NCBI GenBank assembly: GCA_001600175.1
Contig: BCJC01000007.1
Coordinates: 892,115-956,114, forward strand
DNA length: 64,000 bases
Origin: Erythrobasidium yunnanense
Lineage: Eukaryota > Basidiomycota > Cystobasidiomycetes > Erythrobasidiales > Erythrobasidiaceae
Direction of reading: 5' to 3'
The notes beneath the pieces were generated by a model. That model was given only the letters and a program-made list of their open reading frames with translations, searched no databases and had not been told where the DNA came from. This document shows, in pieces, positions 32,960 to 51,299 of the stretch. Positions within the stretch are counted from its first letter, which is position 1. Each line of letters begins with the position of its first letter. The position numbers were made by a program, and so were the translations under genes.

Positions 32960-34114
32960 ATGGCGCAGATCATGCCTCCCCGCCGTAAGGACATGAGCGC
33001 AAGCCTATACGACCGGATCAAGCCTTTCTACTTTGACGAGATCAAAGCGCAAGGCAAGCATCCCAAAGCTATCGAGACACGCAAAGAACTTGTCAGTATA
33101 CACAAGGAGCGACTCAAGTACTACAGAGGACTTCCTATGGACCAAAAACTGCTAGATATCGAGCTCCTCGCCTCTCAGCTATCAGATAGAGATGCACAAG
33201 CCGGAGAATCTGTTATTCTGAGAGATGGCAACTACAAGATCATCAAGGTCTTTGCAGCTGGTGGCGGTTATACCATACTATTGCGGCCCACTCGCGGACG
33301 GTCAAAGCGAATCCCGAAGCTTGTATGCAGAGGTACAGCAGCAAGCTTACGAGCCCAGGAAGGCTTAAACTCCATCAGAAATGACTTCACCCCTCAAATA
33401 GCAAGACTCGCGGTTATCACCAACTTTTCGGCAATTCTGGTATACCTGAAAAGCAAGAACATCACCCGTATAGACATCCTCGGCAAGAGTATGGGAGGAG
33501 CTATTGCACAGCAGTTAGCTGTGCTGTTCGAGTACGCATCCGATGTTAAAGTCAAGTCTGTGACGACTCTCTGTTCCACCGGGGTTAGGACTGAAGTGAA
33601 CGATTTCTTTAAAAGACGTGTCTTATCAAGAACATCGTCGAAGATGACAATCACAGTTCTCCGCACCGGGGGGAGTATCCGGTATCGACACGAGCCAGAT
33701 TACGTGCCCCTGATTGGCGGCGTTCACCTAGGTCATGGCACCAGAACGTCCAAATGCCGCATCAAGATAGTCTATCTAGGTGCAGAGTCCGGTCGTATCA
33801 CTCGGCCTAGTGGTATACGGCTAAGAGGTTACAACCTAGCAAGAGCGTTCATAGGATCCTTTGGTGGGGGCCATGGACGACAAACGACGTTGCTAGATTT
33901 TGGCTACGACATTATCGATTCCAAGGATAGAGACAGGCACCTGGCGATGGGAGAGCGCATGGAGTCGTGGAGGCGCACGATCGTAGCCGTCTTGCATGTG
34001 CTACCTTGGGAAGCCGCTTTGGATGAGCCGTTCGCCGACTTTGCAGATAGAATGAAGAATGAAGGTCGGAAGCGCATTTCTTCGAGTCGTCGGCGGTCCA
34101 GGAGAGGTCGCTGA
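32960..34114 (+). CDS. Serine hydrolase-like protein, paralog 1
   Basis: Intronless, 384 residues (a second ATG lies four codons in). No signal peptide. The N-terminal 90 residues are helical (LYDRIKPFYFDEI, TRKELVSIHKERLKYY). A lipase-class-3-like core follows: a strand, then DILGKSMGGAIAQQLAVL, a G-x-S-x-G nucleophile elbow with Lys before the serine, and DYVPLIGGVHLGHG, which fits the acid and histidine positions of class 3 lipases. The C-terminus carries GGGHGRQTTLLDFG and LAMGERMESWR. Two further copies of the family lie at 48-51 kb. Substrate is unknown; hydrolase assignment rests on the elbow motif and order of parts, not on full homology. It is convergent with the transporter, with as little as 30-250 bases between stops. 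Confidence 0.7.
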   Translation: MAQIMPPRRKDMSASLYDRIKPFYFDEIKAQGKHPKAIETRKELVSIHKERLKYYRGLPMDQKLLDIELLASQLSDRDAQAGESVILRDGNYKIIKVFAAGGGYTILLRPTRGRSKRIPKLVCRGTAASLRAQEGLNSIRNDFTPQIARLAVITNFSAILVYLKSKNITRIDILGKSMGGAIAQQLAVLFEYASDVKVKSVTTLCSTGVRTEVNDFFKRRVLSRTSSKMTITVLRTGGSIRYRHEPDYVPLIGGVHLGHGTRTSKCRIKIVYLGAESGRITRPSGIRLRGYNLARAFIGSFGGGHGRQTTLLDFGYDIIDSKDRDRHLAMGERMESWRRTIVAVLHVLPWEAALDEPFADFADRMKNEGRKRISSSRRRSRRGR

Positions 34115-34363
34115 AGGGAAGCTCGTAAAGCTGTAACACCTTACTGTTGCGCTGTCCAGCCTCTCATCAGAGAGCAGATAGAACCCACATTGTACCGCGT
34201 TAAAGTGCTTCCTTCTACAACTACCGAAACCTGAATTATGTACAACTTGACAGCACACTGACTACCGATGCGTCCCAGAGCCTTCTTTGTTCGATCTGCA
34301 TCATAACAGATAACGGAAACGGACTGAAGAAAACGCGAGCTTGATCAGCTTCACAGTAGCCTG

Positions 34364-36108
34364 CTATGAGGACAGACACTTACTGTCATTATGTGAGATC
34401 GGTCCTTCAGGCCAGACATGATCAGCCGGAAGCTTGGCTATAGCCTCCTCTCTTTGCTTGTTCGTTCTCTTGAGCATCCATACCATAATCCACGGTAAGA
34501 CCGTCAGGACGACTGCCGCTGCCAGAGAGACTTTGGCGGCCGTAGGATAGTAGGGAGCTTCGTTACCGGGAAACAGCCAAGTAGATGCTATACCGCCAAT
34601 CTGAGTCCACGTGAAGCACCAGGCAATTTGGGTGCCTCGAGCGTAATGCGGAGCAGCATTGTCCACAAGCCAAGTAGATGCCGCTGGAGAGGTACCGTAG
34701 CCGCCAACTGTCGATGGTCAAACAACGTCAGTAATTGAGACCACTTCTTTGCAATTTGTGGCCTTACAGAGCCAGAAGAAGATACCAGCATAACGGGCCA
34801 ACGGATCTTTGCTGACCAAATTGATGACGATACCGATGATCGCAAGAGCGCCATAGAAGGAGACTAGTGGCCCTCTGATCTGCTTCTTGTCGGAAAAGTA
34901 GGCCAGTGTCACGGTGACGAAGAAGACCACGACCCAGGGAGGCACTGTGCGAAGCTGAGTCATGATGGGTGAATAGCCGAAAGTTCGTACGATGGTCGGC
35001 AGACTGTAAATGTAGGATGATCATATCAGCGTACTTCGGAAACAAAGCAAGAAAAGCTTACAAGAATGCCATCCCGAATAGATTGATGGCACAAGTGAAG
35101 TTGAGGATGGGACATAGCCAAGCGAAAGGATGCTTGAATGTAGAAGCCACCTCGCTCCAGCTGAATTTGGTGTCCTCTTCGCCTTGGCGGGAGGAAGCGT
35201 TATAAACGGTTCGCAACGCTTCTTTCTCATCTGCGCGTAGCCACCAGGACTTCTCGATGGAAGGTGTCATCAGAAAGAAGGCTGGTATACCCACCGCGAT
35301 TGTCAGGGCGCCTTCGATAATGAAGATATAAGCCCATCCAGGTTTCCCAGCGACTCCATCCAAGTTGAGAATTGCAGCTGCGAACAATCCTGCGAACGCC
35401 CCCGCCATGGCGCATGCAGAGAACAGCAGAGTGCATCTGAGCGAGTATTGCTCGACAGGAAAGAAGAGGGATAGGTATAGGCAGAGGGAAGGAATGACGC
35501 CGCCTTCGGAAAAGGCCAGGAAGATGCGGCAGACGATGAGACCGCTATACGAAGTGACCAATCCTTGCAGAGCTGTGACAAGACCGAAGGCTACACAAAG
35601 CCCTGGCAGCATGCGATGCGGTCCGACTTTCTTCATGAGCCAGGTAACGGGGTACTGGAAACGGTTCAGCCTACATCAAGCTCACAGTAACACAAACTTC
35701 ACCTCAGCAAGGATGTATGGAACGAAGAAGAGGGTGAGTATGACTGAGTACTGATAGCTTGTTATATTCAGGTCTGTTCTGAGACCAGCTGCGGCTGCGT
35801 TGCCCAGATTGGCCTGCGAGAACATGAATCAGCTTGGAATAGTTGTGCGAACATGCGGAAAGCTTACTTTGTCCAAAAAGCTTCGAGGCATCACTTGTCT
35901 TTAGCTTTGCAGAACTGGTTGAGAAGAGTACGGAAACGTACGACATGAGATAGATAAGCACACTGAAGCCAGTTACGATAACATCCACTTTGAAGAGACC
36001 AAAGCGATAGGTCTTGCTTGCTTTGATAGTCGCGACATCGGCATGATTGGGTTTCTCACCAATACCAGCAGCCAGAGGGTCGAAAGTCTTGTCTTCTGGC
36101 GAATCCAT
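34364..36108 (-). CDS. MFS transporter, allantoate permease (Dal5) family
   Basis: Anion:cation symporter of the Dal5 type, which brings in small carboxylates, ureides or vitamins. Exon 1 is 36108-35942; a 13-base exon 35880-35868 supplies SFLDK; exon 3 starts at 35814 with ANLGNAAAAGL. The join LIYLMSFLDKANLGNA is the family's conserved first-loop signature, which proves the micro-exon. Further spans include AFSEGGVIPSLCLYLSLFF and WAYIFIIEGALT, about 12 in all, with several more introns. The C-terminus is uncertain: a GTAAGT donor near 34380 could extend it towards 34141. It shares a 360-base divergent promoter with the FAD monooxygenase. Confidence 0.85.
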
Positions 36109-36331
36109 GATGTGAAGAACAAGAAGTGAAGGGAAAGGAGGGTGTATCTCTGGTCTTCAAGCTTCCTAAGTCTTATCTGCTGCTATTCGGGCCGGACATC
36201 TGGGAGAGGACAAGCCAAGATGGCCGCTCTTTGTTATCATCTGACCATAGGCCATGGAATCCGTCGGAGTATCATTGGTATCTCTTATGATCGTCCACCG
36301 TGCATGCGAAGGGAAGGGAACGAAAGAAAGT

Positions 36332-36344
36332 TGCGGTCACCGCA
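36332..36344. promoter_or_regulatory. Palindrome TGCGGTCACCGCA (CGG-N3-CCG)
   Basis: A perfect inverted repeat of TGCGGT around one base, containing CGG-TCA-CCG. Inverted CGG triplets are the classic target of Zn2Cys6 regulators. It sits between the divergent transporter and monooxygenase genes, about 125 bases before the latter's start. Confidence 0.6.
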
Positions 36345-36468
36345 CCGGCTGGCGAGGTCGCCGTACTAGGAGAAGAAGAGCGGTCAGACACAAGTACCTC
36401 TCTCAGACAGCGTAGAAGTAGTCGCAAATCGTGATTCAGCATTCTCTATCTCCCTTCAGTCAAGCCCA

Positions 36469-38465
36469 ATGATCTGGCTTCAAGCAGTGGGGTCCTTGGG
36501 TCTTGTTCTCTATCTGCTTCGGCGCTGGCTTCTGGCATGGGCTACACATCGATACTGTGCTTTTGGAGAAGTCAAGCACGCGGGCACATCAGCAGCTGCG
36601 CGACGTAAAGGACGGGCTGTCGTTGTTGGCGCCAGCATCACCGGGATCCTGGCAGGTGAGCCGGACAAACCTGAGAAAGCAACAGCGTTCCAAGCTGATG
36701 CCTTCGACGTCTTTCAGCTCGAGTGTGTGCTGATCACTACGAACAAGTCCTCCTTATCGACGCAGAAGACTGCAGTATCGATCCATCAGTCAAGCGCAAG
36801 CGAGTCAAACAGCATGATCAGCTGCACAGTGAGCTGCTTTACGTATCAATTGAAAGTGCAATCAGTCCTGACTTTCCTATTTCACAGTCTTTCTCGGCTT
36901 GATGTACCCGGCTCTCTCGAAACTCTTCCCTTCTTTCCATCAAGAACTTGAGCAGGCCAAAGGTAGCATCATTCCACCTCAGCCTGTCGTCTACCGTGGA
37001 GGTGGTATTGTCAAGCTGCCGCGCTCAGCGAGCGAATGGGCCGTAAGACAGCTATATGTCAGCCGAGAGGTTCTCGAAGCTCTGCTTCGCAAGCTCCTCC
37101 TGCAGAACCACTGCGTTGTGTCGACCGTCCTTGGTACTGTAGGAGGCATAGTGATGGAGAACGGCGTTGTTAGCAAAGTCAGGCTACGTCGGGGAGAAGG
37201 TCACGAGGAGGACATACCTGCTAGCCTTGTCATAGATGCGACGGGGACGGCCAACGGTAGTAAGCTAACTATTCTCACCATAGACTGTCTGAACGGGAGC
37301 TAATACTAACTACAGGCATCCGCTGGCTGAAGAAAGCAAATTACCCTGAGCCAGTAAAGCAGACTTACGAGTGCGTCGCATGCTCTGAGGCAAGCTTCAT
37401 CTCGCTGACTGACAATGTGACTATCAGCCCCGCAATAGTCTACACCTGCTATACCTTCCAGCTCACGCCTGAAATGATTGCGAAATACGATGCTGTCCGG
37501 CCTGCGTTCTCTTGGGCGGAGACCGGGCATGTGGGTGCTTGCTTCAGTGCAGACCACCACTCAGTATGGATGAAGATCGACAACGACCGCGTGCGAACTA
37601 TGTACCAAACATATACAGGCAGAGGCGGAGAGCCTGATACTGTCGAGGACCTACTCGCGTACACGCGCGCAGCTCAGTATCAGCAATGGCAGAAGGATGC
37701 AATAGCCGTCATATGCGGGGAAGGTGGAGAGTATGAAGTGTCGTATAGCAAGTCTAAAGGTAGGACAGCCAGCGACTTAGTAAAGTTGGCTGGAGCGCTG
37801 ATAGTGGGCCTTCTCAGTGCAAGTCGGCGTATGCTATAGAGTAAAGTATACAAGCAGGGACATGCCGAGTAATCTCTTTCCGCTCGGCGATACAGCCTTG
37901 CGCGTAAACCCAAGTAAGCCGAGCTGCTTGGTCCGCCTAAAGCTGTTCTGATGTCCTTCCTCTCCAGTCTTCGGACAGGGATGTACCAAATCTGTCGTGG
38001 ATACTCTCACGCTCGACGGCGTCCTGCGGCGCTGTCCCGATCCTGCGTCCTCTCATCAGGCTCTAGACAGCTTCCTGGATTTGCACTACGCAAGAACCGA
38101 CGCTTTCTGGCGCGATACTCGCTTGCAGGATGTAAGATACGGCAGTATCCATGCATAGAACACAAATGCTGATACCGAATATGTGCATAGTATGCCTGTG
38201 ATGCGACAACGCCTGCCAAGGGCGAAACGAGCGATACTGGATCTTTCCACCGCAACTTCCTTAGATGGATTGTGAAGGCTGCGCAAAAAGTGAGCAGGAC
38301 TTCGTCGACGATCTTTTGGAGCTTTGACTAATTTCTCTTCTATGGATTCAGGACCCAAAAATTGGTAGAAGGCTTACCGAAGTAATGGGAGCGCTGCGGC
38401 CGTTTACAGATTACTGGGATCCAGCATTCCTGCTACAGTGTACTCTCGCGCTTCTTGTGAAATGA
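36469..38465 (+). CDS. FAD-dependent monooxygenase
   Basis: Begins with a membrane span (residues about 3-22), then the dinucleotide-binding loop GRAVVVGASITGILA, interrupted by the first intron (36656-36717) and continued by DHYEQVLLIDAED. QHDQLHIFLGLMYPAL and KLFPSF fit the group of FAD oxidoreductases with the RxxVxQxxxxH motif. Later DIPASLVIDATGT, the GD-x-NP-x-GQG flavin motif (FPLGDTALRVNP, intron, VFGQGCTKS) and a helical C-terminus are complete. About nine exons, the last ending at 38465. All key flavin motifs are present, so the enzyme looks active. Family members hydroxylate or epoxidise small, often aromatic or isoprenoid, substrates; the substrate here is unknown. Placement beside an amidase, a transporter and a DUF4863 gene suggests a catabolic role (inference). 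Confidence 0.8.
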
Positions 38466-38508
38466 GATTAGGTGCAAGCATTGAGGTGTCGCTTGACACT
38501 TTCCGATT

Positions 38509-38522
38509 TGCGGTTCTGCGGT
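38509..38522. promoter_or_regulatory. Direct repeat TGCGGT-N2-TGCGGT
   Basis: Two copies of TGCGGT, two bases apart, about 100 bases before the regulator's ATG. The half-site is identical to that in the transporter/monooxygenase palindrome, suggesting that the regulator controls its own gene. Confidence 0.55.
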
Positions 38523-38619
38523 GCCGATATGTTCTTACCCTGATCTGACAAACGAGCTTGAGCCGTACGACTGCGACAATAACCAACAAGAGCTGCCACT
38601 TGTCTGTTGAACACCACTC

Positions 38620-41108
38620 ATGTCGGCTAATGAGACCATCAATGCCAATCAAACGCACGCTGCATCCACGAGCAACGCACAAACTCCTGCAACCATCAAA
38701 GTAGCATGCTTGAACTGTAGACGAGCCAAGATACGCTGTATCAACGGTCCGGGCACGAGATGCTCGCGCTGCGATAAGCAAGGTCTTGTCTGCGAGTTCA
38801 GAGAGCATGCTCGCGGGGTCAAGCGGTACGCATTAGTAGCTCACAGATCAAGTGACTGTGACTCCACTGAAACGCATGCAACTGCTGCAGACAGCCCGAG
38901 CCTGCTGAGACTTCTCGGCCAACCCAGATCCGTCGATTGTCGCCTGAAAGCCAAAGCACCTGCACCACTCCTGCTTTGCAAGATGGCGAGGACATGCCGC
39001 AACTGCATCTGAATGGACCGACGCCCATATCTGAGCCTCCTCCGCCAACATGGTCGCTTCGCGGGCTCTTCGACGGAGACAGCAAACGCGCTCGCTTGCA
39101 CTACACTGACCAGTTTCCAGATGCGCTGACACTGGGCTTGTTGAGCGCGAAAGAGGTCGATTCGCTTTTTGCGCAGTGAGTCTTGCCCGAAACCAAGCAC
39201 CTCTCACTGAAAAGTGACACGATTGAGCAGCTTTTTTGACGACATGAACCCTTTCCTTGGCCTATTCGATCGTCAACTACACACTGTCGAATATGTGCGA
39301 ACAACGTCCTCTTTGCTCTTCACGGCAATTCTCGCTGTGGCCACGCGATACAGACATCAGGATGCTCACCACGTCTGCCTCAAGCAAGCGCAGGATCACA
39401 TTGGCTCCCTGGTTACTCTGCAAAAGCGGGCTTCCTGGCTGCCCATAATCCAGGCAATCTGTACCCTGGCGTTCTGGAAAGATCCTGAAAGTGAAGCTGG
39501 CTGGAGGAATGTGGGCTTCGCGATTAGGCTAGCGTATGAAGAAGGCCTGCATAGACTACCAAGAGGAGCGGAATCTACGATCATTGAGACCGATGATAGG
39601 AAGGCCAGGATTCTGCTCAGCCAACAACGAACATGGCTCTGTCAGTCAAATGCAATGTCTCATATCTCAAGGCTACTTACTGATGCCTTGCTCCGTACAT
39701 CCAGATCTATGCTGTATGGACCAGATGTAAGCTATCAGACCAAGTAGCAGCCCAGAAGATTAGCTCAATCTCAGGTTAGGATGTCGTTTCAGCGCGATCT
39801 ACCTGTCATGGTAGGTGTAGAATCGTTATAATAGCTGGCAAGTAGATATGCTGATGAATAGCCTATTTATCTGTAGATTTCGCAAGAAAGGTTCAGTGAT
39901 TGGCGGTCCTGGATATCGAACAATGAGAGCTACATATTTCCGGAAGATTGGTGGCTCGCGGCTGCTCTCGAGTACTCTGCCCTGAGATACACGGTCCGCG
40001 CTATTCGGGTGGAGAATGACGATGTCATCGCTCGGGGCAAATTACTTACAACCTCGGGAGGCATCACTCGGTGGAACAGCAAGTTTGAGGCAGCTACTCA
40101 AGACTTCAACCGCTGGAGAAAGCGATGGCATGAAGATGATCGTATATACTCGTGCACTTTTGTCAATAACAGCGAACCTGCTGACTTGCAGTGGCAGCCA
40201 AATTCCAGAAAGCCCCTAGGTCTCGGGTCTTGCTTTCTTTCTACACTCGCTTCATGGCATTCTATATCAGTCGCACGCGCCTCGAAGTAGTCGACAAACT
40301 CATGCGCCAGAACCACGATTCGGAAGACGGCACGTATACCGCATTGCTTCTTGAAGCCTACATGGATGCACAAAACCTGTTGCAAAGCTTGCCAAGAATG
40401 AACACGCACGGGAACATGTTACAATACCTTCCCGTAAGTAATATGTTTCGCAGTATAATGCTTACCCTAACGGCTAGCTAGGACACGTTTCCAATCGCGA
40501 TCTGCGCGGCTGCAATTTGGTCTGCCCGAGTAAGCCTATGGCCGCCAAGCCGACCTACATCGCTCGCAACTAATAGCTCCACCAGGCTGTCGAGATGGCG
40601 ACCCTCCAAAGTCAATACGACCAAGTGAAAGCGACTTTGTTGAATGCTGCAACGGTGTGCACAAGCGCCGCTATTCATCGAAAAGATCTGCCTACTCAGC
40701 TTGGACGGTTTTTGCATGCACTCACCCGCAATCTCCGATCTTCAGGAGTGGCATCGCAGACTGTGGACGCGGCCAATAGACCAACAAATGCCAATGAAGA
40801 CTTTGCCAACCAAGCAACAGACATATTTCGGGAAAGGCCTCAACAGAGTTCTTCTGCGGTCCCTATCATACTCGCGCCACAACCTCTTCTTGGCACAGCG
40901 CCAGACTATACTACCTTGTTGGGCCTATTCACAAACGACAATGCACCTGAGTCACACACTACTTTGTAAGGAAATTGGCACAACAAACTTCGATAGACTT
41001 GGACTAAACGTTTCTATCGCTAGTTATACAAGCCAGACGGCCGATGATACCAACACTATACCTGTCGATTTGGAAGAATTCTGGAACTATTTTCGAAACG
41101 TCGAGTAA
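38620..41108 (+). CDS. Zn2Cys6 transcription regulator
   Basis: Fungal binuclear zinc cluster activator. The cluster is complete at residues about 30-58 (CLNCRRAKIRC ... CSRCDKQGLVC), followed by an intron after GVKR and a disordered linker. The middle-homology region matches fungal-specific TF domains: FFDDMNPFLGLFD, then LLFTAILAVATRY and AICTLAFWKDPESEAGWR. Several more exons follow; the last (from about 41021) encodes YTSQTADD and DLEEFWNYFRNVE to 41108. The unspliced alternative would end near 40969; splicing at GTAAGG gives the better ending. It lies between the monooxygenase and the DUF4863 gene and is probably the pathway-specific regulator of both. Confidence 0.83.
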
Positions 41109-41247
41109 GCCGATTGGCTGCGTCTAGTCATCATTTGGACCGAAGCCCAATGCAGCGCCAGGATCCTTCGGCTGCGGCATGTCAGGCGTAGCGTTGTCTG
41201 AAGAGATGGCAGCTTTAGCATTGGGCTGAGACGATGCCGCGCGAGTA

Positions 41248-42170
41248 CTACGCACAAGCGATCCTACCAGCAGGAAGGAAGAAAAGCGCAATTACGCCTC
41301 CGCCGCGTACTCTTGGAAAGTGGTGCTATCATCACGATAGCAGATCAGCAGAATTCTCTCTGCAGAATGGCAAGGGCGCTCACCGAGCCTGGTCCTGGGC
41401 ACGTCCATCCTTTCTGCAGGCGATTCCTCCTTCAGAACGCAGCTGTTACTAAGAGACTGACTTCGAGCGACTCACACCGACCCAGAAATTGTCCAGACCT
41501 TCTAACTGAGGGTTGGGTCCGGTGCCGGGTACCTGTATTGACATGTTGATCTCGCCGTACGGGTGGGCATGGTACTACGAAGAGCAAAGCGTCAGGAGAT
41601 CCGGCAGGAGAACATGTTTCTGCTGGCCTACCTGGCCAGAGAATTGGCTTTCATCGAGTGAATCCTGTATTGATCGTTCAGCGCAACTTCTCCGCTTTCG
41701 ATTCCGCATACCATGTAGACAGCAGTTATAGAGAACCAATTGAGATCCTCGCCTGTCATAGCTAGCTGAGCTTATATACCGAAGATACAGATTTGAAGCT
41801 CACTCGGCTGTCGCAGACGAGACCTCCGGTATCTCTTTCCCTCAATCTCGATGTTCGCCAGCCAGCCCTGTATACGCAGAATCGCTCATCTTTAGCTTCT
41901 GGTGCGACCTGTAACTAGCCGAAATGCAGCTTACATCCTCCAGACCGCGAAGTGCGAGCTCTTCAAACTGGACCAGACCATCAGCAAAACCCGGCAATCG
42001 CCAATCTGCCCACGCACTCCTTTGTAGAATCTGCTGTCTGGTCCATAGTCCTTGTTGAGTTTGGCTTCAAGACGCTTTCCAGGTGTCAAGTCCTTGATCT
42101 CCTGCATGAACTCTTTGGCCAAGTCTACGAGAGCCAGCTCATCCTGGTGTACGCTGGCTGGAGCTGTCAT
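41248..42170 (-). CDS. DUF4863 protein (4-hydroxylaminobenzoate lyase family)
   Basis: Eight exons (42170-42018, 41967-41935, 41867-41804, 41752-41712, 41664-41632, 41574-41476, 41413-41384, 41325-41248) join with all phases correct into 176 residues. The order of motifs is that of DUF4863: LEAKLNKDYGPDSRFY, GWLANIEIEGKRYRRSRL, NWFSITAVYM, GQYHAHPYGEINM, KGWTCPGPGSHHFP, and VIALFFLPAGRI at the end. The histidines of YHAHPYGE and SHH are likely metal or active-site residues of the cupin-like fold. To my knowledge the family includes PnbB, which splits 4-hydroxylaminobenzoate to protocatechuate and ammonia. The longest exon is 153 bases, so simple frame-based searches would miss the gene. It is divergent from the amidase (215 bases between ATGs). 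Confidence 0.82.
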
Positions 42171-42276
42171 CGTGGAGTGCAGTATATCAATCACAGTAAA
42201 ATGTACGAGAACAAATCCAAGGACCCAGCCTGCAATCCCTCATTGTCTCGCTATGCGGCCCCCGAAAGAGGTTCGC

Positions 42277-42317
42277 CGGAGGTCACCGATGTTGAAGGCG
42301 ATGATAAGCGGCCGCTT
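42277..42317. promoter_or_regulatory. CGG-type palindromes between DUF4863 and amidase
   Basis: CGG-AGGTCA-CCG at 42277-42288 shares the core GGTCACCG with the palindrome in the other divergent promoter. AAGCGGCCGCTT at 42306-42317 is a second perfect palindrome. Both lie in the 215-base region between the two start codons. Confidence 0.5.
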
Positions 42318-42385
42318 CCTCATGCCGCCGACATGCAAGACTTCCTTGCTAAGCTCTGACACAGGAGCGAGCACCGGTGTCTTGT

Positions 42386-44409
42386 ATGCAGCAAGAAATG
42401 CCATCCTGTATGGCAGCTCAGGATCACGAACAGCTCAAGTGGCCTCAGGTGAGTCGCAGGACTTGCCGAGTGAATGTAGAGGTATTGATACTGATCTTTC
42501 TCTGCAGAAAGCCATTGATTTAGTCAATGACCTGAATGCGTTCATCCCTCCGGCCTGGCTTGTGCCGAAAGCTCTTCTTGACAAGTTCCCGCTTGGATGC
42601 GATATAAGACCTTTAGCTCGTGAATCAGGCATACTGTCTGCTCGCGAGCTTGAGATAACGGATTTTACCAATGATGCGACTGCTCTACTCCAAGACATTG
42701 CAACCAAAAAATATTCGGCAGCAGAGGTCCTCACTGCTTACGCCAAACGAGCTGCGTTAGCCCAGCAAGCAGTGACATGTCTAGCCGGCTTCACCTATCG
42801 AGAAGCCCTACAGCGTGCGATCGAACTTGACGATCATCTCCAGAGGACCGGCGAGACTGTTGGACCGCTACATGGACTGCCCATTAGCACAAAAGTGGGT
42901 CATTCTGTCGAAATGCACATGCCCGTTGATCAACAGCGCTCCGCAGAGTCAGTACCACATCAAAGGCAGGGTCTGCTCGGCAGGATTCACGAATGCCATA
43001 GTAGCCCACGATACAGCGCACAGTATCGAAATACTGCAAGATGCTGGAGCTATTGTCTTCTGTCAAACGAACCTTCCACAAGCTATCATGCACTTGGAGA
43101 CCTGGAGTTTCTGGGGTCTTACTAGGAATCCTCTCAACACCAATCTCTCGCCTGGGGGTAGTTCAGGGGGCTGCTCAGCCTTAATGGCCGCTGGAGGATC
43201 TCCATTCTCAATGGGAAGCGACATTGGCGGAAGCGTCAGGCATCCTGCCTCTGCAACCGGGCTTTGGACACTCAAGCCTACTGCTCTTAGAGTACCTCGA
43301 GGTACGGCTTGCCAACGTACTCCGCACACCGCAATTGTGTAAACTGACAATCTCCTCAGCTAGAATGTTTGGACTCAATCCTGGCGCAGACTCGATTAAT
43401 GCATCTCATGCACCTCAATGCAGAAGCTTACGCGACATCAATCTCTTCTTTACTGTCATATTCGAAAGTAAACCATGGCTAAACGAGCACAGTTTAGTTC
43501 CGCTTCCTTGGCGTATCGACGAGAAGCCTGGCTGGAAAGGCAAAAACGGAAAGATCAGAATCGGCATCATGGAAAATGATGGAGTGGTGAGGCCACAGCC
43601 ACCCATTTGCAGAGGACTCAAGCATATTGAAGGAATCCTTCTGCAAAACCCCGACATCGAAGTCGTCCGCTTCCAGCCTTTCAAGCACGACATCGCGGAA
43701 GATCTTGTCATTGAGCTATACTTCTGCGATGAGGCCGCTCGTGTCAAGCAAGTCATCAAGGAATCGCAAGAACCCATGCTTCCGCTGACGGATTACATAC
43801 TGAATCACCGAGCTGTCAAGAATCACAATATGCACGAACTTTGGGCAGTGAGCGCAAAGTCCGGTCTAGCATAGCAGAGCCTTGCTGAAAGTTTGGATAT
43901 GACAGCTGAATGCGAGAAGAGAGGGTTTCAGAGCCGAATATCTGGACTACTGGAACACGCAGAATGTAGACCTGATCATCTGCCCAGTTGCACCGCAAAC
44001 TGCACCTCAGCTGAACACAAGCACCTACTGGAACTATACCTCGATTTGTGGGTGGTTTGAATTTCTCGCAGGTCAAGCCTAGGATCCGGCTAACATCTGT
44101 TTCAGGGAATTTGCTTGATTACGCTGCCGCCACCTTTCCAACAGGTTTGACGGTCAATCCTACACTGGATATGCAGTATGAACAGCCGTACGATGCATTG
44201 AGTGAGACCGACAAATATGTTCAGAGTATCTGTGAGTTCAGCTATACGGCATTGGAAACGTGCACTTTCTAATGTCCGTCACTATAGACGATCCGGCCAT
44301 CTACAAGAATACACCTATATGCCTACAAGCTGTTGCAGGGCGTTTTGAAGACGAAAAGCTTGTGCACGCGCTCCGCATCATCGAAGAATCACTGAGAAAT
44401 ACGAACTAG
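42386..44409 (+). CDS. Amidase (acetamidase type, amidase signature family)
   Basis: Hydrolyses an amide to acid and ammonia or amine. Exon 1 42386-42448 (MQQEMPSCM...), exon 2 42508-42894, exon 3 42947-43301, then others to 44409. ELEITDF, AYAKRAALAQQAVTCLAGF and GPLHGLPISTK mark the N-terminal half, with the catalytic lysine in PISTK. The Gly/Ser-rich signature follows: SPGGSSGG and GSDIGGSVR carry the cis-serine and nucleophile serine. The C-terminal part (IICPVAPQTAPQ, NLLDYAAATFP) is complete after removing three introns. All catalytic residues are present. The conserved Asp after the lysine (usually SLKD) is Ser here. Substrate unknown; acetamide to aryl amides are known for the family. 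Confidence 0.87.
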
Positions 44410-44665
44410 ATTTCGTGCTCTCGGAGTCCTTTGCAAGATGGGGTCATGCTTCACATAATCGCACCGATGGTGTGAGATGTTTCGAAGCGCCTACGGCAAT
44501 TAAATCTGCAAATGACTTTGGTCGCGACTGCGCGTCGAGTTCAGATATTCCGCATCGCTTGACAGAGCGTAGCATAGCGCGTTGTATGAGTTGCTCACTG
44601 GTTGTGCTATGTTACTGATGATGAGACAAGATGTCGGAGTCGGTTGTCCTTTCGCCTACATTGCC

Positions 44666-45385
44666 ATGCTTTCGTCACGGGCAGCACAGCAGGCTGCTAC
44701 AACCGCTCGTCGACCATCCAGACAGACTATACTGGCTCATCTCAGCTCGACTGACGGCGCAGTCGACCTCGTTGGTCCACCTGATCCTATCACAAATCTT
44801 CGGCCAGTGCAGTATGCAGCGCGCTTTCGGGCACCCAATCCTACCACAAACACAAGAAAACTACATCCATACTCGCTCGAAGAGTTCTCGTCTCCCTCTC
44901 CAGCTTCAACTTTATCACCGGCTTCTCTGCTAGATCGCAAAGCCAGGCAATCCAATGATAAGCTACAACGACTCGAGCTGCTGAGACAGCGCTTTGAAGC
45001 TCAAGATCTTGAATGGAGACTGCAGAGAAGACGCCTTGACCAGATCTCGCACGAGCACTGGGCAAGGTCGAATACTGCTTTTACATCTCAGAAGTCAGAA
45101 GCAGAGTCGCAAGCACACGAGAGGATAGCTTTATCTACTCTCTCGCCTTCTCCATCTAGTGCCTTCGCTGCAACATCTCGCAAGAAACCCTCAGAGCTTC
45201 GCGTAGATCCCCAAGTCATGGAGAGATTTCTGAAGGATTGGGTAGAAAGCAGAGGAAAGGAGTATGAGAACTATCAGCGAGTCTGGGTTGGCGGGATACT
45301 GGGCCAGATGAAGCCTGCTATTAGAGCGCAGTACAGGGAGTGGAGGTGGAAATTCGAGCTGTGGAGATGCGGACTGCTTCGATAG
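44666..45385 (+). CDS. COA8: Cytochrome c oxidase assembly factor COA8 (APOPT family)
   Basis: Mitochondrial matrix protein needed for stable complex IV assembly in animals. Intronless, 239 residues from the ATG at 44666. The N-terminus is basic with few acids (SSRAAQQAATTARRPSRQT), a good import sequence. LVGPPDPITNLRPVQY is the family signature. A Trp/Arg-rich helical middle (RLQRRRLDQISHEHWARSN) and the ending DWVESRGKEYENYQRVW then YREWRWKFELWR fit the C-terminal half of the family. An ATG upstream at 44582 would add 28 residues with no import character. Confidence 0.8.
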   Translation: MLSSRAAQQAATTARRPSRQTILAHLSSTDGAVDLVGPPDPITNLRPVQYAARFRAPNPTTNTRKLHPYSLEEFSSPSPASTLSPASLLDRKARQSNDKLQRLELLRQRFEAQDLEWRLQRRRLDQISHEHWARSNTAFTSQKSEAESQAHERIALSTLSPSPSSAFAATSRKKPSELRVDPQVMERFLKDWVESRGKEYENYQRVWVGGILGQMKPAIRAQYREWRWKFELWRCGLLR

Positions 45386-48268: not shown

Positions 48269-49367
48269 CTAGGTCGTGTGCCTTTTCATCCTGTCGCTCT
48301 CCTTGCACATCCGGTGGGCGAAGTCAGCGAACGACTCAATCAACGCTTTTCTGAATGTTACAGTGCCTAATACCGAGCATACCTTTGCTCTCCAGCCTTC
48401 CATACGCTCTCCCATGGCCAAATGAGAGTTCATATCGCGCTTGCGGACGTGATGAATACCGAAATCGAGGAGCGTAGTTTGGCGTTCGTGGGGCGTGGCG
48501 CTGGCCACGAAAGCTCCTAGTAAACTTGTATCGGATCGCGTAGTGTCTGGTAGCTCGATATGCTTGCGGTCTGCGCCTAGGTAAGCTATGGACACTCTGC
48601 ATGTCGACCGATCGATTCCGTGCCCTAGGTGAACCCCGCCAATGATAGGAACGTAGTCCGCTGGGAAACTATGCTTCAAGCTACCTCCTGTTCGAAGAAG
48701 TCGGATCTCCCGTGGCGCAGTAGACAGGTGCGAGACGTGCTTCTTGTAGAAATCGTTGACAGCAGGACCAACTCCCACGGAGCAGACCGTGGTCAAGGTC
48801 CGAACTCTGATGTCTGTACAGTAGGCAATCAGAACTGCCAATTGTTGTGCTATAGCGCCTCCCATGCTTTTGCCGAGCACATCGATCATTCGGATATCGA
48901 GCTTATCGAGATGTTTGGCGATCGCTGACCAGTTTGTCAGAATAGCCAGTCGAGCTATTTGAGGAGATAGGTTGTTCCTCACGGAGTTGAAAGCCTGTTC
49001 AGCGTGTGGCCAACCTGCAGTCCCTCGGCAGACGAGCTTAGGTATCCTTTTGTTCCGCGGTCTTTCATCGTTTGCGCATAACAGAAAGATATAGCCTCCT
49101 CCAGCGGCCCAGACCTTGTCCACGACATAGCGACCCTCTCGCAGCTTCATAGTTTCGCCCAGCTGAGCCTCTCGATCAGCAAGCTGAGATGTAAGGAACT
49201 CCGCTTAGCAGTTGCAGCCGCTCAAGGTCATCTTCGTATACAGTATGGAGCTCCTTGTGTATCTGCGTCAGAGCTTGGCGAGCGCGGACAGCAGAGGGGT
49301 GCTTGCCAAGGAATTTGAGATTATTAGAATAGAATGGCTTTAGTCTTGCGATAAGATCGACGTTCAT
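48269..49367 (-). pseudogene. Serine hydrolase-like paralog 2, frame interrupted
   Basis: Second copy of the family seen at 32960. The N-terminal block (IARLKPFYSNNLKFLGKHPSAV) begins at the ATG at 49367, and the core runs from about 49200 to 48269 with VLGKSMGGAIAQQLAVL and DYVPIIGGVHLGHG intact. The reading frame shifts by one base near 49200, between LERLQLL and TSQLADREAQLGE, in a region where the other two copies are continuous. No intron could fit there. It is either a recent pseudogene, a sequencing error, or translated from the internal ATG at 49150, giving a 293-residue protein without the N-terminal block. Tail to tail with the glycosyltransferase-like gene (about 50 bases between stops). 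Confidence 0.65.
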
Positions 49368-49635: not shown

Positions 49636-50802
49636 CTAATTCGCAGATGATACACTTGCTCGCCGAATAGCTGAAGAGAGTCGCCTGCTGCCTTCAGTCT
49701 TCATTCTGATTGCAAAGTCTGGGAACGGCTCAATCAAAGCGACTTTGCCTGGGCGATAGTTGAGCACGCTGACGACTTTGCTTCTCCAACCTTCTATTCT
49801 CTCACCCATCGCAAGATGCTCGTTGAGATTTTCGGATTTGACTGTGTATACACCGAAATCGAGCAGCGTTGTCTGTCTTTCGTGACCTCCACCGAAAGAC
49901 GCGACGAATGCTTTCGCAAGCGTAATTCCAGTGAGCTGCATATTTGGAAGGGCGATGTCTCGAGCATTCGCGCCTAGGTAGAAGACTTTGACCTGGCATT
50001 GACTGTGTGGCGCACCGTAGCCGAGGTGGACTCCGCCAAGGAGAGGTACATAGTCTGGCTCATGCCGATCTTTGATACTGCCGCCCACGCGGATCACCTT
50101 GATGACCATAGGAGAGGCTCTTGCCGGCAGAACATGCTGCTTGAAGAAGTCGTTGACTGCGGTGCCGACTCCTACCGAGGAGAGGGTTGTTAGGCAGTTG
50201 ACTTTGATGTTTGAAGCGTACTCGAATAAAACAGCGAGCTGCTGAGCGATTGCACCACCCATGCTCTTCCCGATAATATCGATTTGAGCAATGTTGATGC
50301 TCTTTAGGTGAAGCAGAATTGCTGAAAAGTTGGTGACGACTGCAAGTCTTGCTATTTGAGGTGTGAGATCAGTTCTCACAGAGTTCCAGCCTTCTTGAGC
50401 ACTCCAGCGTGCAGCGGTACCTCTGCAGACGAGTTTCGGGATCCCCTTTGTTGGCGTGCCCTTGAAGTTTGGGTATAGAAAGAGGATGTAGCCTCCGCCA
50501 GCTTCAAAGACCTTTTTAATCGAGTATTCACCATCGCGCAGGCACACAGACTCTCCAGCTTGAGCTTCGCGATCTGCCAGCTGGGAAGCGAGGAGCTCGG
50601 CATCCAACAAATCCTGCTTGTCTGGATCCTTGGCGTAGTACTTCAGTCGTTCATTGTGTATGCTTATGAGCTCCTTACGGGCTTGGACAGCTTTAGGATG
50701 TACGCCCTCTCCGGTGATCTTGTCAAAGTAGAACGGCTTGATGCGCTCGTATAGGTCTGCGTTGGCAATGCTGCTACGTCTTCTTGGGAGGATCTGCGAC
50801 AT
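49636..50802 (-). CDS. Serine hydrolase-like protein, paralog 3
   Basis: Intronless, 388 residues from the ATG at 50802 (MSQILPRRRSS), which aligns with the start of paralog 1; the frame is open 115 codons further but without family likeness. LYERIKPFYFDKI, LLDAELLASQLADREAQAGES, IIGKSMGGAIAQQLAVLFEYAS, DYVPLLGGVHLGYG and GGGHERQTTLLDFG match paralog 1 closely. The last HG of the GGVHLGHG motif is YG here, so the histidine in use is likely the one before (VHLG). It lies directly upstream of paralog 2 on the same strand, so these two are a tandem pair; paralog 1 is 15 kb away on the other strand. Confidence 0.72.
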   Translation of the reverse strand: MSQILPRRRSSIANADLYERIKPFYFDKITGEGVHPKAVQARKELISIHNERLKYYAKDPDKQDLLDAELLASQLADREAQAGESVCLRDGEYSIKKVFEAGGGYILFLYPNFKGTPTKGIPKLVCRGTAARWSAQEGWNSVRTDLTPQIARLAVVTNFSAILLHLKSINIAQIDIIGKSMGGAIAQQLAVLFEYASNIKVNCLTTLSSVGVGTAVNDFFKQHVLPARASPMVIKVIRVGGSIKDRHEPDYVPLLGGVHLGYGAPHSQCQVKVFYLGANARDIALPNMQLTGITLAKAFVASFGGGHERQTTLLDFGVYTVKSENLNEHLAMGERIEGWRSKVVSVLNYRPGKVALIEPFPDFAIRMKTEGSRRLSSAIRRASVSSAN

Positions 50803-51299
50803 CTTTCTCGGGTTGTCTTCGTGTTGGTGAGAGCGACGTCCCGCTGGCAGCAGGAATTGCCAAGTCGTAGAGCCGGAAGAAAGGGAGTGTGGGATGGAAG
50901 GGAGCTTCAGACTAAGGGCCTTCAGTAGTCTCCATCTGCTGATCACTCTTTCGCACTTGAGGTCTCTTTCACACGTCCTCCGATAACGGATTCCGAAAGA
51001 CAAGTTGCCAAGCTCCAGGTGCCGGCTGCAGACCGTTTGGCATTGATATGCATGCTTCAGCACGCTGCACGTCGACTGCGCATTGATTCGAGATTTGGCG
51101 CAGCCAAAACTGCAAAGATCCAACATGGCCGTTGAAGGCTCAAGCAAGATACGCCATATAGCGGTAGAGGCAGCGCAATCTTCGTACTACAAGGACACTC
51201 CCTAGGTCTTCTTTGATGGTCCTGCGTGATTCGGCCTTCGATACGTTATGCTCGGAGTTGAGCTGAAGATATCATGGGAGCTGCGGCCGCTGTACGAGA

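Follow-up and report, generated by a model that had tools for sequence, protein, structure and literature searches.

What does a fungus do with a lyase of the kind found in bacterial degraders of nitroaromatic compounds, when the gene stands among those for a flavin monooxygenase and an amidase? The question is raised by a 64,000-nucleotide stretch of Erythrobasidium yunnanense DNA (assembly GCA_001600175.1, contig BCJC01000007.1, forward-strand positions 892,115 to 956,114; hereafter the window). At 34301-44409 it holds five intact, intron-containing genes, encoding a major facilitator superfamily (MFS) transporter, a flavin adenine dinucleotide (FAD) monooxygenase (FMO), a Zn2Cys6 regulator, a DUF4863 protein of the PnbB type, and an amidase (Table 1). 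This run is a genuine, intact gene cluster. The best single reading, held tentatively and at rather less than even confidence, is that it serves to break down an amide-linked aromatic amine by an oxidative route, as a small catabolic cluster under its own regulation.

The PnbB-type protein

An earlier sequence-only reading of this DNA assigned the fourth gene to DUF4863. This is borne out by a Pfam profile search, in which the fungal protein matches PF16155 (PnbB) at full length (positions 2-152 of 153; 188.3 bits, with a curated cut-off of 26.9; 1e-55), and the trees described below agree. The protein contains the strings HAHPYGE at 110 and PGSHHFP at 149, and in an eight-row DUF4863 alignment H110, H112, E116, and H153 are invariant. 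Because the HxHxxxE motif and the histidine of the second motif are both kept, a metal-assisted lyase would be the natural reading. A model of a bacterial relative (L010, pLDDT 94.1), made from an alignment that took in 58 of the 80 loci introduced below, has three helices followed by strands and is cupin-like; Foldseek places DddQ dimethylsulfoniopropionate lyases and cupin dioxygenases at the top, with TM-scores of about 0.5 or less. A cupin-like fold was noted earlier for pfam16155 in an excerpt of PMC6449761. In the PDB, the fungal PnbB has no match and a profile of bacterial PnbB gave a chance-level match only, and five DUF4863 proteins compared with NCBIfam matched no model. The step attributed to PnbB is the conversion of 4-hydroxylaminobenzoate to protocatechuate (PMC9590159, excerpt).

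The DUF4863 family is not uniform. A tblastn search of plasmids returned 26 records, 12 of which were opened; two (H8 and H14) had no annotation to read. Among the annotated records, H1, H3, H5, and H9 encode proteins 46-53 % identical to the fungal one; a nitroreductase gene adjoins the DUF4863 gene in H1, H3, and H9, and in H5 none is annotated within 9 kb. H11, H12, H13, and H20 (30-38 % identical) come with a flavin reductase or an NAD(P)H-dependent oxidoreductase, and meta-cleavage genes (H11 and H13) or a 3-hydroxyanthranilate dioxygenase (H12 and H20) lie close by. H15 (31 %) lies within a box benzoate operon, and H25, from a Streptomyces plasmid, is a divergent partial match next to an unrelated FAD oxidoreductase. 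This oxidoreductase was considered as a counterpart of the fungal FMO and rejected, having no BLASTP match to it and standing beside a divergent DUF4863. Much of the usual C-terminal sequence of the family is gone from the Streptomyces protein (L120, 4911-5357), which looks degenerate.

Species genomes of bacteria and archaea were scanned with PnbB-type seed sequences, which biases the outcome to that type; 192 relatives were identified and the best 80 kept, all of them 47-56 % identical to the fungal lyase. A 36-row tree was built from 25 of these, three of the four annotated PnbB-type plasmid rows, five rows inferred from their neighbours to be mutase-like (two of them matched stretches only), one box row, one Streptomyces row, and the fungal protein. 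Ultrafast bootstrap/SH-aLRT (Shimodaira-Hasegawa-like approximate likelihood ratio test) support is 100/99 for the PnbB group, to which the fungal protein belongs, and 95/86 for a group of their own made up of the five mutase-like rows, whose identity to the fungal protein is 29-38 %. In a quick 87-row tree with all 80, the fungal protein is again in the PnbB group (SH-aLRT 97). The fungal, Streptomyces, and box branches are flagged as long by the tree tool. These trees place the fungal protein in the nitroreductase-linked PnbB type, apart from the 3-hydroxyanthranilate/meta-cleavage and box types. It sits among actinobacterial rows in the 36-row tree, on branches that are not firm (84/87 and 89/95), and the 87-row tree does not resolve its position; a bacterial origin of the fungal PnbB is possible.

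Partner genes in bacteria and in the fungus

Within 8-kb flanks, 68 of the 80 bacterial loci have a nitroreductase match, which in L049 is weak, at 24 %; contig ends truncate eight of the 80. The nitroreductase lies within about 300 bp in 54 of the 68, on the same strand in 53 of these (distance taken from the approximate gene end). The PnbB type is thereby tied to hydroxylaminoarene chemistry. Eleven of the 12 loci lacking a nitroreductase match contributed 20 neighbouring open reading frames (ORFs), in which Pfam identified no monooxygenase; nine of these frames, possibly spurious, belong to no Pfam family, and the scan took in neither L074 nor other ORFs of these loci. Relatives of the fungal FMO were sought in 19 of the 80 genomes, with distant and uninformative matches (25-34 %) in nine. 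In viral contigs no relative was confirmed.

Some of the bacterial loci (L005, L006, and some of L010-L089) have other neighbours: a glutamine-synthetase-like gene in five of the 80, a Rieske oxygenase in nine, and a glutamine-amidotransferase-like gene in two. Such neighbours recall gamma-glutamylation routes for anilines and aminobenzoates.

In the fungal genome there are no matches to the PF00881 nitroreductase family, searched in six frames and exon by exon, a search that a heavily split gene could escape; as a control, the family was found in 14 of 14 prokaryotes. Likewise, Pfam searches of the spliced proteins show no nitroreductase among the five cluster genes. With no PF00881 found, the bacterial hydroxylamine donor is not apparent in the fungus and a flavin monooxygenase is nearby instead; this adjacent enzyme would therefore be the simplest source of the N-hydroxyl group.

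The gene cluster

Gene models were spliced by hand. All introns are GT-AG and 47-67 nt long, there are no internal stops in the five proteins, and the models are supported by profile matches (PF16155, PF01425, and MFS_1) that span splice sites. The sequence-only reading had the five genes in the order and on the strands found in the spliced models, with two divergent pairs (MFS/FMO and PnbB/amidase) and a right edge at 44409, which is indeed the amidase stop. On the left, the end of the MFS gene is probably at 34301, with a last exon (34301-34323) proposed from a splice pair; otherwise the frame stops at 34364. Catalytic motifs, also called intact in that reading, were found as strings in the amidase, PnbB, and FMO, together with a six-cysteine zinc cluster in the regulator; the residues regarded as catalytic in the three enzymes are those we presume to be so. 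In searches scoring the best candidates only, PnbB and FMO have one copy each in the 20.9 Mb genome, both of them here.

The amidase matches PF01425 over positions 1-444 of 445 (5.4e-83), and its motifs GPLHGLPISTK, GGSSGG, and GSDIGGSVR contain the lysine, cis-serine, and nucleophile serine. Among solved structures it is closest to 6kvr, named fatty acid amide hydrolase (3.5e-89), followed by 8wv2, an amidase family protein (9.8e-87). There are about ten amidase genes in the genome (25 exon matches, grouped by us). For the transporter, the match to MFS_1 (2.2e-34, positions 3-346 of 347) establishes the family, and its earlier label of Dal5-type is presumptive. The regulator has Zn_clus (1.4e-5) and Fungal_trans (1.4e-8) domains.

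Two candidate signs of shared regulation or acquisition were set aside. The word GGTCACCG is present in both divergent promoters, yet there are four copies of it in the window, and G+C content is flat (0.50-0.53), giving no indication of foreign composition.

Candidate route

Amide cleavage, N-hydroxylation, and a lyase step make the most economical reading of these genes, with N-hydroxylation as the putative key step. The MFS protein would import an amide-linked aromatic amine, from which the amidase, if it acts at this point, would release an aminobenzoate-type amine. The FMO would N-hydroxylate this amine, and the PnbB-type cupin lyase would convert 4-hydroxylaminobenzoate or a close analogue to a catechol acid, such as protocatechuate, and ammonia. 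The Zn2Cys6 protein may switch the cluster genes on. A narrower version, in which the cluster is a fungal oxidative entry to the nitrobenzoate pathway, with an epoxidase-related FMO replacing the nitroreductase, acting on amidase-freed aminobenzoate, and PnbB forming ammonia and a dihydroxybenzoate, is possible and, taken whole, rather unlikely.

A pathway of this kind was part of the sequence-only reading. Its PnbB step gains from the profile and the trees, and the intact genes, divergent promoters, and resident regulator also stand; oxidation of an aryl amine by the FMO, its supply by the amidase, and co-expression of the five genes are proposals. The FMO keeps the strings VVVGASITG, VIDATG, and LGDTALRVNPIFGQG, corresponding to the GxGxxG-type, DATG, and GD...NP.FGQG motifs, and its best Pfam match, FAD_oxidored, scores 26.3 bits, 0.7 below the cut-off of 27. 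Several observations weigh against the proposed route, beginning with this enzyme. All nine of its PDB sequence matches are MonCI or LasC/Lsd18, and no solved N-hydroxylase or aromatic hydroxylase is among them. LasC is named in the PDB as a putative epoxidase and Lsd18 as a flavin-dependent monooxygenase; MonCI we take to be an epoxidase. As these are its matches, the aryl-amine oxidation step is assigned from gene position alone, and kinship with MonCI and LasC neither excludes nor supports N-hydroxylation. By tblastn (1e-4 for the FMO), the 80 bacterial loci include no relative of the fungal FMO and only two with an amidase match. Two 8-mers, and not a single 9-mer, occur in both divergent promoters; as random pairs have means of 3.5 and 0.9, there is no signal of a shared word. 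In 15 of the 71 columns with conservation of 95 % or more, the fungal lyase departs from the bacterial proteins; its branch is also long, and its substrate may therefore differ. DUF4863 members also occur in box benzoate operons (PMC6449761, excerpt), and so the family name alone cannot fix the substrate.

The fate of the product adds to these points. The sequence-only reading had an aromatic acid going to ring cleavage, but the sink is less simple: among the PF00775 matches of the genome (eight, grouped by us into six genes) no protocatechuate 3,4-dioxygenase was recognised. Judged by their translations, two of which were also searched against the PDB, these proteins look like hydroxyquinol/catechol 1,2-dioxygenases and one apparently secreted form. 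In the second PDB search a chlorohydroxyquinol dioxygenase was best (5.7e-20), and protocatechuate 3,4-dioxygenase beta chains were weak (1.2e-4 and above). There are 21 exon matches to FAD_binding_3 monooxygenases in the genome, and two of these loci adjoin intradiol dioxygenases. If protocatechuate is made, a downstream route via hydroxyquinol would be more likely in this genome than one via protocatechuate 3,4-dioxygenase. Elsewhere in the genome, at C1:1997000-2003000 (L107), the gene for an FMO that by eye looks like a phenol hydroxylase adjoins a catechol 1,2-dioxygenase-like gene.

Alternative explanations

Close behind the oxidative arylamine route stands degradation or detoxification of another, more lipophilic amide, with the FMO epoxidising or C-hydroxylating it, the amidase cleaving it, and PnbB taking some other intermediate, phenolic or hydroxylamino, as its substrate. 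Plant hydroxamic acids would presumably be an example source. The relatives of the FMO, with the putative epoxidase LasC and MonCI among them, point this way, as do the fatty acid amide hydrolase name of the best solved match of the amidase and the presence of DUF4863 in the box operon, a pathway without hydroxylamines. The fungal protein is, however, in the nitroreductase-linked PnbB group and outside the box and mutase-like types, and we regard this explanation as possible while somewhat unlikely.

It is also conceivable, with a low probability, that not all five genes belong together: the unit might be, for example, PnbB with the amidase or the MFS transporter with the FMO, the rest being chance neighbours. 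With about ten amidase genes in the genome a neighbouring amidase is not extraordinary, and the common promoter word is not above chance, but the lyase and FMO were each found once in the genome, and the 10-kb run that holds both, with its two divergent pairs, also holds a transporter and a regulator. The bacterial pattern of nitroaromatic catabolism, with a reductase other than PF00881 making the hydroxylamine for PnbB while the FMO and amidase do other steps, would suit the lyase type and its bacterial partner gene. PF00881 was nevertheless detected in neither the genome nor the five genes (other reductase families were not searched), and such a pathway is improbable. That the fungal protein is a 2-hydroxylaminobenzoate mutase, yielding 3-hydroxyanthranilate from a derivative of anthranilate, is brought to mind by the 3-hydroxyanthranilate dioxygenase gene near two DUF4863 loci; as the five mutase-like rows are only 29-38 % identical to the fungal protein and group separately from PnbB (95/86 and 100/99, respectively), it is very improbable indeed.

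Relation to known systems

The bacterial pnbA-pnbB system, which takes 4-nitrobenzoate to protocatechuate, resembles the fungal cluster in lyase type, full length, and cupin-type motif. It differs in that the fungal cluster has an FMO, an amidase, and a fungal-type regulator, and PF00881 nitroreductase was not found. The mutase-like DUF4863 systems have the Pfam family and HxHxxxE in common with the fungal protein, but at 29-38 % identity and in a separate group; the box-operon DUF4863 belongs to the same Pfam family, but is 31 % identical (one locus), on a separate branch, and has other neighbours. Among fungi, Agaricus bisporus reportedly has a monooxygenase acting on aminobenzoate, 4-aminobenzoate hydroxylase, said to catalyse an oxidative decarboxylation that needs no PnbB; it is likened to the cluster by this reported reaction and not by sequence.

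For the lyase itself there is fungal precedent, since p-hydroxylaminobenzoate lyase has been predicted in Verticillium (VDAG_07609) and Fusarium oxysporum (FOXG_15608), according to Table 3 of PMC3145793. These proteins have the same predicted function as the cluster lyase, the likeness being to the description in that table and not to sequence. No published description of this gene set was found in the open-licence literature searched. If the oxidative arylamine route is correct, fungi would have an oxygen-based removal of nitrogen from aromatic amines that uses the lyase type of bacterial nitroaromatic degraders, and arylamine deamination would proceed without a Rieske dioxygenase. N-acyl aminobenzoates, aminobenzoates, and 4-hydroxylaminobenzoate would then be the substrates to test, an uncharacterised monooxygenase group would have a suggested role, and caution would be needed before a fungal DUF4863 gene is taken for a nitroaromatic marker.

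Features of the locus

Table 1. Genes and divergent promoter regions of the cluster, in positions of the window.
Feature	Positions	Strand	Details
MFS transporter	34301..36108	-	7 exons, 488 aa; spliced model; PF07690 2.2e-34
Divergent promoter region MFS/FMO	36109..36468		360 bp between starts
FAD monooxygenase (FMO)	36469..38465	+	9 exons, 508 aa; phmmer MonCI 8.5e-15, LasC 3.3e-13; motif strings
Zn2Cys6 transcription factor	38620..40969	+	9 exons, 630 aa; PF00172 and PF04082; C-terminal end uncertain
DUF4863/PnbB-type lyase (putative)	41248..42170	-	8 exons, 176 aa; PF16155 1e-55; trees
Divergent promoter region PnbB/amidase	42171..42409		239 bp between starts
Amidase-signature hydrolase	42410..44409	+	7 exons, 552 aa; PF01425 5.4e-83; phmmer 6kvr 3.5e-89

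Three alpha/beta-hydrolase-like open frames, paralogues 53-64 % identical to one another, flank the cluster on both sides (32963-34114, + strand; 48269-49204, - strand; 49636-51186, - strand), as if it were inside an older local family. Two of them have Pfam matches below the cut-off and the third has none. After the amidase, an open frame at 44573-45385 (+ strand) contains COA8 (cytochrome c oxidase assembly factor 8; PF10231, 8.6e-13).

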